This document shows, one piece after another, positions 11,156-44,065 of a stretch of 64,000 nt of DNA. A program made the translations under genes and the position numbers. Numbering within the stretch: the first letter of the stretch is position 1; every line of letters begins with the position of its first letter. The notes below the pieces were generated by a model. The model was not told where the DNA came from and did no database searches. It saw only the letters and a list, made by a program, of their open reading frames with translations. Origin of the DNA: a bacterium BMS3Abin06 (lineage in GTDB: Bacteria; Nitrospirota; Thermodesulfovibrionia; UBA6902); the NCBI GenBank assembly GCA_002897895.1, contig BDSY01000087.1, forward strand, positions 1-64,000, read 5' to 3'.

Positions 11156-11162
11156 ATGATGT

Positions 11163-11186
11163 AGGGGCAATTCATGAATTGCCCCT
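11163..11186. repeat. 24-bp perfect palindrome, copy 1
   Basis: A perfect palindrome with half-site AGGGGCAATTCA. The same sequence recurs at 42973-42996 and, with one mismatch, at 39509-39532. Here it lies between clpA and aat. Confidence 0.8.
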
Positions 11187-11211
11187 GCTTACCTGCATGG
11201 TTTTTACAACA

Positions 11212-38968: not shown

Positions 38969-39511
38969 ATGGAAATCCAAAGGGGGAGACCTGAGCAGTT
39001 ACCCTTACTGTTTAATTCAAGAGCATTAGCAGATAAAAAAATCGTTTATGTCGGTGAAGTCCATGACGTATCTGCTCATCATGCTGTCTATCTTGAGATT
39101 ATCGCCGGGATATACAGGAGACACCGGAAGATCGCTATCGGCATGGAGATGTTTCAGAAACCTTTTCAGGGCATACTTGACGGTTTTATCGCAGGCAGGC
39201 AGGATGATACCGGAACGAATACAGGGAGTGGCTTAAAAAGATTTTCAGCACGCATAAGAACGCCGATAAAAAGAACTTTGATTATTTCTGTTAATCACAA
39301 GTTCTGCGGGATGAGACCATGTCTCAATCCATCGCAGAGTTTCTTCAGAAAAGTCCGGACTATCAAATAATTGTGCTTGCGGGACAGGGACATCTGAGGT
39401 TTGGTTCGGGCATTCCCAAAAGGACTTTCAGAAGAACCGGGCATGATTATGCGATTGTTCAAGATTGAAAAAGGTATTGCCGATTATGTTATATTCTCTA
39501 AAACCCGTAGG
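38969..39511 (+). pseudogene. ChaN-family (haem-binding uptake, PF04187) pseudogene
   Basis: The first part reads KKIVYVGEVHDVSAHHAV, then GMEMFQKPFQGILDGFIAG, the usual ChaN start with the E-x-H-D motif. The frame then breaks near 39215. In another frame further on, DETMSQSIAEFLQKSP, IIVLAGQGHLRFGSGIPKR and RRTGHDYAIVQ give the C-terminal half. The middle is missing and the reading frame is broken, so the gene is dead. No signal peptide is left. Confidence 0.7.
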
Positions 39512-39532
39512 GGCAATTCATGAACTGCCCCT
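39509..39532. repeat. 24-bp palindrome, copy 2 (one mismatch)
   Basis: Same AGGGGCAATTCA half-site as at 11163 and 42973, with one C for T in the second half. It lies 28 bases upstream of the molybdopterin/cysteine-desulfurase fusion. Confidence 0.8.
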
Positions 39533-39560
39533 ACATCTTGCCGCTTAAGGAAACGGAGTT

Positions 39561-42500
39561 GTGAATATGGCAAAAGCAAATACTGAAAACAATGAACGGC
39601 GCGCTCTATGCGGCGTCTGCCCTGCCGGTTGCGGAGTGATAGTCTCATATGATGATAGGGGAAGAATTGATAAAGTCCGCCCTGATGAAGGCTCAGGTTT
39701 CAGTGCTATCTGCAAGCTCGGTGAACACTCTGCTGAAATTGTGTATTCCAGAGACCGGCTTTTATATCCGATGCGGAGGAAGGGCCCAAAGGGAACATAT
39801 GATTTTGAGCGGATATCATGGGACAATGCCTATGAGATTATTGCTGACAGGCTGAATAAGATCAAGGCAGAGTACGGGCCTGAGGCGGCTTCCATTTATA
39901 CGGGAAGGGGCAGCTTTGAGCTTGCAATGTGCGATGTATTTCAGCCTGAAGGCGTTGCCGTGTCATCTGCTTCCAGTGTTCTGTTCCCGTTCGGTTCTCC
40001 GAACACTATGGGTGTGGGCGCGCTCTGTTATGTCTCCTTTGCCATGATCGCTCCGCATGTGACCATGGGCGGTATGCTGATTAACATGTTTTCAGATATT
40101 GAAAATGCAAGGCTCATTGTGGTCTGGGGCGCCAACCCGGCTACGGACTGTCCCCCTCATGATCTTGACCGGATAATCAGGGCGCATAAACGCGGGGCTG
40201 AGGTAGTTGTAATTGATCCCCGGAAGACCGTGACTGCAAAACTGGCCGGTGCTGAATGGATACCCATTCGTCCGGGGACAGACGGCGCACTTGCATTGGG
40301 CATCTGCAATGTAATCATTAATGAAGAGATTTATGACGACGCATTTGTGAGAGACTGGACGCTGGGCTTTGAAGAGTTTTCCAGGTATGTGCAGCATTTC
40401 AGGCCTGATGTTGTAGAGAAGATTACGGGCCTTCCTTCTGAGACAGTAATATCCCTTGCAAGACGCATTGCCGGAGCTGACGGGGCATCGCCAATCATGT
40501 ACAGCGGCCTTGAATACAGTGACAGCGGGGTGCAGGCAATACGCGCAACGCATGTGCTCTGGGCGATTGCAGGCCAGCTTGACGTGCCCGGCGGCAGATG
40601 CTTTTCAATGAAGGAAAACACCTTCCCGATAAACAGGCAAGGCCATGTTGCAAATCCTGATGTACGCAAGGCACTGGGACGCGACCGCTTTCCGGTCTAC
40701 AGCGCATACCGCGGAGAATCACATGCAATAGCCCTCCCGGATGCGGTTTTAAACAGCAAGCCTTACCCGGTCCGTTCACTTATTATCCTGGGCGGTTCCA
40801 TGATAACTGCATGGCCTCAACCTTCTGTCTGGCGCAAAACACTGAACGCGCTTGATTTTCTCGTCTGTATAGACCGCCAGTTTACTGCTGATGCGGCATA
40901 TGCGGATATTGTCCTTCCGGGTACGACAATGTATGAGATTGAATCATATATGATCCATGGGCCTGTCTTCCGGATTCGTGAGAAAGTAATTGATCCGGTG
41001 GGTGAGGCGCGCAATGATTTTTTCATTATGGCGGAACTGGCCGACCGCCTGGGTTACGGACATCTTTACCCGCAAAACGAGGATGAACTCCTCAGGCATG
41101 TTTTAAAGGGCTCCGGTTTTTCCATTGAAGACGTGCGTGCAGCAGGGGGGAGCGTACGGCTGCCGTCCGTGCTCATGCAGTACAAGAAATGGGAAAAGGG
41201 TTTATTAAGACCTGACAACAAGGCGGGATTTGATACACCTACCGGGAAATTCGAGATTGCCTCCACAATTCTCGAAGAACACGGATATGACCCGCTGCCT
41301 GTTTATACCGAACCACAGGAAGGCCCGATGTCCCGGCCTGAGATTGCAAAACAGTTCCCACTGGTCTTCAACTCAGGCGCGCGCGTGACCACTGACTTCC
41401 GGTCACAGCATCACGGCATCCCCGGTCTGAATAAGGAACGTCCTGAGCCGGCGGTTACAATAAACAAGTCTGACGCCGAAGAACGGGGCATTGCCACAGG
41501 CGATCTTGTGAGGATAAAGACATCAAGGGGCGAGATTACTATGAGGGCATTTGTTACGGATGACATTGTCCGGGGTGCAATCGATGCCAACATGGGTGGG
41601 GGAGGGCCGGTCGGTCCCGTGGCCTGGCAGAAATGCAATATAAATGAACTGACCGACTTAAAACGATATGATCCCATTTCAGGGTTTCCTGTATACAAAG
41701 CGCTTTTATGTGACGTGGTTAAAGTTGTTAAGGGAGAGGGAAGATTAACAATAGACTCGGGCGAGTACGGCATTGCCGAAAGCATGGTGGGGACTGAATA
41801 TCCGGCTCCTTATGGCAAGCGCATCTATCTTGACCATAATGCTACAACTCCGCTCGATCCGGAGGTCTGCGAGGCCATGTTGTCTTGTATGGAGAGTAAT
41901 TATGGAAACCCGTCGAGCATATACAGCGAAGGTAAAAACGCCGGAATCCTAATTGAATCAGCACGCAGGAGCGTGGCTCAAATGCTCAATTGCACTGCCC
42001 GCCGCATCGTATTTACAGGCGGGGGGTCTGAGGCCAATAATCTTGTTTTGAAAGGAATTGCCTTTGGCGAGAAGAATAAGAGAGATCACATTATTACTTC
42101 ATCCATTGAACATCCATCTGTATTGGCAGCATGCGCCTGGCTGGAAAAATATGGATTTCAGATAACCCGCCTTGATGTGGATGAGACCGGAACACTCAAT
42201 CCCGGGGAATTGGAATCAGCAATTAATGGCAAAACCTGTCTCGTGAGTATCATGCTTGCCAACAATGAAACAGGCTCTCTGCAGCCGGTGGCTGAAATGG
42301 CGCGCATCTGCAGACAACGCGGTGTACTGTTTCATACTGACGCTACTCAGGCAGCCGGTAAAATCCCCCTGGATGTCGGGGAACTTGGGGTTGATCTGCT
42401 GACTTTATCCGGTCACAAGTTGTATGGGCCCAAGGGAGTCGGCGCCTTGTATGTGAGGAAGGGTGTGCGTTTAGAGCCCCTTATACACGGAGGCAAGCAG

Positions 42501-42974
42501 GAAGGTTCGCTCCGCGCTGGAACGGAAAACTCGATCGGAATTGCCGGACTCGGCAAAGCAGCCGAACTTGCGATACAGCGGCTTCCTGAGATGAAGAGAA
42601 TAAGGGCACTGCGGGATAAACTTGAAAAGGGTATCAGGGAATTATTTCCTGAAGCCGGACTGAACGGGAAAGAGAGTGAACGGCTTCCGAATACTCTGAA
42701 CATCTGTCTGCCGGGCCTCAGGGGCGAATCAATTGTGATGGCAATGGATCAGAAAGGTATCGCACTTTCATCCGGCTCTGCCTGCCGTTCCGGTTCACCG
42801 AAACCATCTCATGCCCTGCTTGCAATGGGCTTGTCTGAGGAAGAGGCGCATTGTTCGATCAGGCTTTCCCTGGGGCTTCAAAATACGGAAGAAGAGATTG
42901 AGCGCACTGTTTCAATATTTAAACAGGTAATAAAAGAGGCGGGCAGCACTGTGCGGTTTGTTCCGTGCAGGTAG
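39561..42974 (+). CDS. molybdopterin oxidoreductase-cysteine desulfurase fusion (probable metallopterin-dependent ergothioneine synthase)
   Basis: 1137 codons (GTG at 39561 after GGAG; ATG at 39567 is the alternative). Residues 1-740 form a DMSO-reductase-family enzyme: a 4Fe-4S site (C17, C20, C24, C51), Molybdopterin domain (VVWGANPATDCPPHD; VIDPRKT) and the dinucleotide-binding domain (SGARVTTDFRSQHH; GDLVRIKTSRGE). No Cys or Sec stands where the metal ligand is expected; serines of VSSASS near 130 are candidates. Residues 755-1137 form a complete NifS/IscS cysteine desulfurase with YLDHNATTPLDP, HTDATQAAGK, PLP lysine K953 in SGHK and active-site C1075 in SGSACRSGS. An EgtD gene follows directly. 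This matches, from memory, the Caldithrix abyssi enzyme that turns trimethylhistidine into ergothioneine without oxygen. Confidence 0.8.
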   Translation: MNMAKANTENNERRALCGVCPAGCGVIVSYDDRGRIDKVRPDEGSGFSAICKLGEHSAEIVYSRDRLLYPMRRKGPKGTYDFERISWDNAYEIIADRLNKIKAEYGPEAASIYTGRGSFELAMCDVFQPEGVAVSSASSVLFPFGSPNTMGVGALCYVSFAMIAPHVTMGGMLINMFSDIENARLIVVWGANPATDCPPHDLDRIIRAHKRGAEVVVIDPRKTVTAKLAGAEWIPIRPGTDGALALGICNVIINEEIYDDAFVRDWTLGFEEFSRYVQHFRPDVVEKITGLPSETVISLARRIAGADGASPIMYSGLEYSDSGVQAIRATHVLWAIAGQLDVPGGRCFSMKENTFPINRQGHVANPDVRKALGRDRFPVYSAYRGESHAIALPDAVLNSKPYPVRSLIILGGSMITAWPQPSVWRKTLNALDFLVCIDRQFTADAAYADIVLPGTTMYEIESYMIHGPVFRIREKVIDPVGEARNDFFIMAELADRLGYGHLYPQNEDELLRHVLKGSGFSIEDVRAAGGSVRLPSVLMQYKKWEKGLLRPDNKAGFDTPTGKFEIASTILEEHGYDPLPVYTEPQEGPMSRPEIAKQFPLVFNSGARVTTDFRSQHHGIPGLNKERPEPAVTINKSDAEERGIATGDLVRIKTSRGEITMRAFVTDDIVRGAIDANMGGGGPVGPVAWQKCNINELTDLKRYDPISGFPVYKALLCDVVKVVKGEGRLTIDSGEYGIAESMVGTEYPAPYGKRIYLDHNATTPLDPEVCEAMLSCMESNYGNPSSIYSEGKNAGILIESARRSVAQMLNCTARRIVFTGGGSEANNLVLKGIAFGEKNKRDHIITSSIEHPSVLAACAWLEKYGFQITRLDVDETGTLNPGELESAINGKTCLVSIMLANNETGSLQPVAEMARICRQRGVLFHTDATQAAGKIPLDVGELGVDLLTLSGHKLYGPKGVGALYVRKGVRLEPLIHGGKQEGSLRAGTENSIGIAGLGKAAELAIQRLPEMKRIRALRDKLEKGIRELFPEAGLNGKESERLPNTLNICLPGLRGESIVMAMDQKGIALSSGSACRSGSPKPSHALLAMGLSEEEAHCSIRLSLGLQNTEEEIERTVSIFKQVIKEAGSTVRFVPCR

Positions 42975-42996
42975 GGGCAATTCATGAATTGCCCCT
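42973..42996. repeat. 24-bp perfect palindrome, copy 3
   Basis: Identical to the copy at 11163-11186. Its first two bases are part of the TAG stop codon (42972-42974) of the fusion gene. Together with the copy at 39509 it brackets that gene. Confidence 0.8.
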
Positions 42997-43054
42997 GCAT
43001 CGCTATTTTAATGCAACTGTAAGGTAAATATCTGCTCAGGAAAGGATATCGTAC

Positions 43055-44065
43055 ATGGAATTTGATTTAGTGCAGCAACAAGGCATCGAAGTTCAAAATC
43101 ATATGGTTGGCTCGTTCCGCAAAGAGATAGCCGGAGACGTTTCAATCGGACTGACTTCATCCCGGAAGTTTATCCCGAGTAAATACTTTTATGATGCCCG
43201 CGGATCACGGCTGTTTGAAGAAATATGCTCTTTGCCCGAGTACTATCCTACAAGGACTGAAATATCAATATTAAGATATGCCGCACCGGAGATCATGGGA
43301 CCTTTTGAGAGCGGGGACATTGTGGAATTGGGGTCAGGCGCGAATAAAAAAATACGCATGCTCCTTGATTCAGCCGGTGCATCGAGGCTCCAGTACCTGC
43401 GCTACGTGCCTGTGGATGTGAGTAAGACAGCGCTGATTGCGGCCTCAGAGGAATTAGTTGAATTGTATCCGGGCTTAAGTGTGCTTGGAATTGTGGCTGA
43501 TTTTACCCTCCACCTGGATGCGATCCCGGGCGACCGTCCGAGGATGTTCATTTTTTTCGGCAGCACTATCGGCAACTTTGATGAGGAATCACGCATGAGA
43601 TTTTTAAGGCATGTGGCTGATACGATGAATCCGGGGGACAGATTCATTGCAGGTTTTGATATGCTGAAGCCTAAGGAGGCATTGGAGTCAGCCTACAATG
43701 ATTCCCGCGGAATTACTTCCGAATTCAACAAGAATGTCCTGCATGTTTTGAACCGCGAATTAAATGCGGATTTCAGACAGTCGCATTTCGATCATATGGC
43801 CTTTTTTAATGAGGAAAAAGGGAGGGTGGAGATGCATTTGCGGGCAAACAGGGAGATATCGGTCAGGATAGGCGCCCTGGACCTGGATGTAAGCCTGGAA
43901 AAGGGAGAGACCATTCATACCGAAGTATGCGCTAAATTCAGCGAGGAAGATGTTGAGCAGATAGTCAGCAAGGCTGGCCTGTACATTGAACAGTGGTTTT
44001 TTGATTCCCGGAAGTGGTTTTCCATAGTCGAACTTGCAAAAGGTTACAGGAAAGAAATTTCTTGA
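43055..44065 (+). CDS. egtD: L-histidine N-alpha-methyltransferase
   Basis: SAM-dependent trimethylation of the histidine amino group to hercynine (trimethylhistidine), the first step of ergothioneine synthesis. 336 residues, the usual length for EgtD. FIPSKYFYDARGSRLFEEI and the L-P-E-Y-Y-P-T-R-T-E motif open the protein; IVELGSGANKKIRMLLD is SAM motif I; FIFFGSTIGNF and LHVLNRELNADF follow, and the C-terminal EVCAKFSEEDVE matches the family. AAAGGA precedes the ATG. Lies 80 bases after the Mo/cysteine-desulfurase fusion on the same strand; no egtB or egtC is nearby. Confidence 0.9.
   Translation: MEFDLVQQQGIEVQNHMVGSFRKEIAGDVSIGLTSSRKFIPSKYFYDARGSRLFEEICSLPEYYPTRTEISILRYAAPEIMGPFESGDIVELGSGANKKIRMLLDSAGASRLQYLRYVPVDVSKTALIAASEELVELYPGLSVLGIVADFTLHLDAIPGDRPRMFIFFGSTIGNFDEESRMRFLRHVADTMNPGDRFIAGFDMLKPKEALESAYNDSRGITSEFNKNVLHVLNRELNADFRQSHFDHMAFFNEEKGRVEMHLRANREISVRIGALDLDVSLEKGETIHTEVCAKFSEEDVEQIVSKAGLYIEQWFFDSRKWFSIVELAKGYRKEIS

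Follow-up and report, generated by a model that had tools for sequence, protein, structure and literature searches.

A probable metallopterin-dependent ergothioneine synthase encoded beside EgtD in a Nitrospirota genome, and relatives that lack the desulfurase module

The window considered here is a 64,000-nucleotide stretch of contig BDSY01000087.1 from the uncultured Nitrospirota bacterium BMS3Abin06 (assembly GCA_002897895.1). It carries a long fused gene whose product, judged by alignment, is very probably a metallopterin-dependent ergothioneine synthase (MES); with EgtD, encoded by the next gene, it would make up a two-gene, oxygen-independent pathway to the antioxidant ergothioneine. MES was described in 2022 by Beliaeva and Seebeck from Caldithrix abyssi (PMC9516567). 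Of more interest than the MES-EgtD pair itself are relatives of the enzyme that lack the desulfurase, which offer a natural test of the route by which sulfur reaches the metal centre.

Gene Structure

The two genes and the residues discussed below, the latter placed by alignment, are the following (CaMES is the Caldithrix enzyme).

39561..42974, + strand: MES gene, with a Mo/W-bis-MGD module (about residues 1-735) and a NifS-type cysteine desulfurase (about residues 750-1137)
39609..39713, + strand: codons of the 4Fe-4S cysteines C17, C20, C24 and C51 (CaMES C14, C17, C21 and C48)
40026..40028, + strand: C156, predicted Mo/W ligand (CaMES C153, acetylene hydratase Cys141)
42417..42419, + strand: K953, PLP lysine (CaMES K952)
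42783..42785, + strand: C1075, desulfurase persulfide cysteine (CaMES C1074), in a low-confidence, possibly mobile loop of the structure model
42966..42968, + strand: C1136, penultimate residue and putative second relay cysteine (CaMES C1135)
43055..44065, + strand: EgtD, L-histidine N-alpha-methyltransferase, 336 aa, recognized by profile TIGR03438

The MES gene is a single unbroken reading frame of 1137 codons counted from GTG. An ATG at 39567, two codons after the GTG, has a better-spaced GGAG, so that a protein of 1135 residues is the likelier product. Pfam matches are Molybdopterin at residues 66-496 (6.8e-43), Molydop_binding at 608-714 and Aminotran_5 at 755-1115 (2.4e-83). Profile and structure matches assign the first module to the DMSO-reductase family of Mo/W-pterin enzymes and the C-terminal module to the NifS/IscS-type cysteine desulfurases, the latter half scoring 494.6 with the NCBIfam NifS equivalog, under its cut-off of 530.75. 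The preliminary description had reported a Mo-enzyme joined to a desulfurase in one 1137-codon gene, and this stands, with the frame intact and both Pfam modules present. It had also named a stop or frameshift between the two halves as a finding that would undo the reading. Against this are 62 complete fused relatives; since they come from independent assemblies, faulty assembly does not explain the fusion, and a frameshifted or chimeric origin is ruled out.

Comparison with CaMES and Other Enzymes

CaMES has 1136 residues, with Fe4S4 cysteines at 14, 17, 21 and 48, the metal ligand C153, and K952, C1074, C1097 and C1135 (PMC9516567). The variants K952A, C1074S, C1135S and C153S no longer gave ergothioneine in E. 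coli, whereas mutation of C1097 reduced its formation by only half (PMC9516567). A MAG named Caldithrix abyssi (L093) encodes a protein of 1136 residues in which all nine of these Cys and Lys residues stand at the exact CaMES numbers. The length and numbering of this protein, rather than a published accession, suggest that it is CaMES or nearly identical to it.

Between the window protein and the L093 protein, identity is 70% over the full 1137 residues, with no break at the domain joint. All nine residues have counterparts at the expected places, among them C1098 for C1097 and those for all four residues whose mutation abolished activity. This alignment had been proposed beforehand as a check on the suggested resemblance to a Caldithrix abyssi synthase, and it bears the resemblance out. 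Domain order, length (1137 vs 1136 aa), the nine residues and the association with egtD are thus shared with CaMES; the differences are that the host is a member of the Nitrospirota and that egtD lies immediately downstream in the window.

The four 4Fe-4S cysteines are invariant in 84 of 84 aligned relatives, and K953, C1075 and C1136 are kept in nearly all alignment rows that reach the desulfurase region. The cluster cysteines, K953 and C1075 had been singled out from the first inspection of the sequence and are found in the translation under those numbers. That inspection was mistaken in one respect, the "lack of an obvious Cys/Sec metal ligand". A missing ligand is ruled out by C156, which is Cys in all 84 sequences (local motif GALCYVS), corresponds to Cys153 of CaMES and is predicted to bind the Mo or W. 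It also aligns with the cysteine at chain position 138 of acetylene hydratase (2e7z), which we take, with an offset of three residues, to be the tungsten ligand Cys141. The description of CaMES likewise notes ligation of the metal by cysteine (PMC9516567).

Acetylene hydratase is the best PDB match by both sequence and fold, sharing the fold of the Mo module and the position of the Cys ligand; it differs in being only 26% identical, in having no desulfurase, and in catalyzing hydration rather than C-S bond formation. The C-terminal half shares the PLP lysine and loop cysteine with NifS/IscS desulfurases and is 44-45% identical to Nfs1/IscS. Unlike these, it is fused, falls under the NifS equivalog cut-off, and has an extra conserved tail with a Cys-Arg end. 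An AlphaFold2 model of MES (mean pLDDT 86) gives the same picture, with acetylene hydratase as the best fold match of the Mo module and Nfs1/IscS as that of the C-terminal module. Confidence is low at residues 154-156, 1074-1079 and 1128-1137, a pattern that fits, without proving, loops that move in the relay and a site dependent on its cofactor.

EgtD and the Remainder of the Pathway

The egtD gene starts 80 bases past the MES stop codon. Its product scores 352.5 bits with TIGR03438 (NCBIfam cut-off 290.9), in keeping with the full-length EgtD first described. The substrate-contact positions of mycobacterial EgtD are Y56, N166, Y206, M252, E282 and S284 in M. smegmatis numbering. Five of the six are kept in the window protein (Y63, N174, Y214, M260 and E290), and the sixth, S284, is replaced by C292. 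Cys at this position is found in 13 of 54 MES-linked EgtDs, and Ser in 39.

EgtB had been reported as absent, and no match to TIGR03440 is found in the bacterium's own genome assembly, which is about 92% complete. EgtB and EanB, a rhodanese-type anaerobic ergothioneine synthase, have their pathway step in common with MES; their folds are unrelated to it. A search of the same genome for rhodanese domains in general gave five, spread over three open reading frames that lie on contigs other than that of MES. The best MobA-like match in the genome is under the NCBIfam cut-off, as it is in 13 of 14 control genomes. This match and the Ser-to-Cys change in EgtD are among the points that weigh against the identification as MES.

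Proposed Route of Sulfur and Possible Alternatives

The preliminary description had sulfur passing from cysteine to the metallopterin and on to trimethylhistidine (TMH), and this fits every sequence test made. EgtD would methylate histidine three times to give TMH. The MES desulfurase would take the sulfur of cysteine as a persulfide on C1075. Probably relayed by C1136 on the C-terminal tail, the sulfur would next reach a Mo/W bis-MGD centre held by C156 and occupy the terminal position there. The imidazole carbon of TMH would then take up the metal-bound sulfur to form ergothioneine. The order of the relay, the metal-sulfido chemistry and the product are modeled on CaMES.

Another product can be imagined, with the enzyme sulfurating a different histidine-derived or heterocyclic substrate and EgtD making another methylated amino acid. 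The Cys at EgtD position S284 would be compatible with this. There are also a few MES genomes in which no egtD was detected (L104, L078 and L125, discussed below), so that the substrate of some MES may be a different one. For the window enzyme this is very unlikely, given that it adjoins an EgtD with the Y, N, Y, M and E contact positions in place, that it has 70% identity to the CaMES-like protein, and that four divergent MES yielded ergothioneine in E. coli (PMC9516567). Scarcely credible is a Mo/W oxidoreductase (of FDH or reductase type) in which the fused desulfurase serves only to sulfurate the enzyme's own cofactor, like the dedicated desulfurases of other Mo enzymes: the module does fall within the DMSO-reductase family, and sulfuration of the cofactor by a desulfurase is common (PMC9516567), but the close match to the CaMES-like protein from end to end, the best solved match (acetylene hydratase, not FDH) and the conserved egtD linkage across MES loci all oppose it.

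Distribution of MES

MES appears to be widespread among anaerobes. A sample of 396 Nitrospirota genomes contains ten with a single-frame, full-length fused MES, plus one short, one broken by an N gap and one degraded. In a scan of named genomes the Mo module had 358 relatives, of which the best 80 come from many phyla and mostly from anaerobic organisms, including anammox Planctomycetota, methanogens, ANME-type archaea, purple sulfur bacteria and Desulfobacterota. Flanks of 1.4 kb or more on both sides are available for 51 of the best 80, and 43 of these 51 loci have egtD next to the gene or nearby. Fourteen MES genomes without an adjacent egtD were searched; the gene lies elsewhere in 11 and was not found in L104 (Magnetocorallium), L078 and L125. 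In a tree, the window MES groups with other Nitrospirota and with anammox sequences, and the mixture of phyla suggests, but does not prove, transfer.

The occurrence in this lineage had been put forward as new. As a detail for Nitrospirota it is, and the window gives that phylum a well-supported case of anaerobic ergothioneine synthesis; because it is one occurrence among hundreds, it is a new example of a described class and not a new system. MES was reported from 55 genomes in 2022 (PMC9516567), and the 358 Mo-module relatives indicate that it is far more widespread. What role ergothioneine plays in the absence of oxygen is therefore a sharper question. No later papers bearing on MES, or on ergothioneine in ANME archaea or Nitrospirota, were found in the open-access literature.

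Two irregular forms are artefacts. At the joint of the split MES of genome G382 there is a string of N together with a duplicated segment, and in the very long reading frame of L090 a run of N (read as X) precedes unrelated sequence.

The genome of Candidatus Magnetocorallium paracelense (L104; MES at L036:7308-10703) has a full fused MES and, at 99% completeness, no egtD that could be found. Just upstream of this MES is a protein of 444 residues with no Pfam match; none of the remaining loci among the 80 has it, and it is ruled out as a general MES partner. The same genome has a stand-alone desulfurase of 387 residues (L046:6741-7904), which is 61% identical to the MES desulfurase and ends, as MES does, in Pro-Cys-Arg. 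Similar stand-alone desulfurases (58-62%) are seen in three genomes (L014, L015 and L016) from a single genus of the family to which the host belongs, and egtD was not found in those genomes. Another genome with a full MES contains in addition, at L047:278-2479, a stand-alone Mo-enzyme that shares 40% identity with the Mo module of MES.

Relatives Without a Desulfurase

Several relatives consist of the Mo module only. In four of these egtD follows at once, and in two it is elsewhere in the genome.

L097:5962-8148: egtD follows at once; ANME-type or methanogen MAG (archaeal)
L098:1918-4107: egtD follows at once; ANME-type or methanogen MAG (archaeal)
L099:3123-5312: egtD follows at once; ANME-type or methanogen MAG (archaeal)
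L100 (genome G362; same contig as L040:485-2758): egtD follows at once; Nitrospirota MAG
L151:5965-8151: egtD elsewhere; Rhabdochromatium marinum, an isolate
L109:374-2536: egtD elsewhere; Deltaproteobacteria MAG

The short sequences in L097-L100 stop at the domain joint, and the short-MES stretches contain no N. In the tree the short forms are placed among the fused ones, an arrangement that requires four changes. Nothing in the three archaeal genomes exceeds 33% identity to the MES desulfurase. The R. marinum genome has nothing above 24% and no close desulfurase of the NifS/IscS type. Ordinary desulfurases, 42-51% identical to that of MES, are present in G362 and in the genome of L109.

Because CaMES needs its own desulfurase in cis, the short enzymes probably draw their sulfur from a different source, unless they have another function. 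The scatter of short forms among fused ones, together with the lack of a close NifS/IscS-type enzyme in the archaeal and R. marinum genomes, suggests that the desulfurase, essential in cis in CaMES, has perhaps been lost several times. The chances are about even that this happened and that sulfide, polysulfide or another carrier feeds the metal centre directly. No reports of desulfurase-free MES were found in open-access papers.

Surroundings of the Locus

The MES gene is flanked on both sides by a palindrome, GTAGGGGCAATTCATGAATTGCCCCTAC, at 39507-39534 and 42971-42998, the second copy overlapping the MES stop codon; a further copy is at 11161-11188. With 14 near-exact copies in the genome, it is a REP-like element. 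Upstream, at 38969-39370, is a ChaN-like (heme-binding uptake) reading frame that matches only the first third of the Pfam profile. It is probably frameshifted or decayed, since related-looking sequence seems to continue in another frame.
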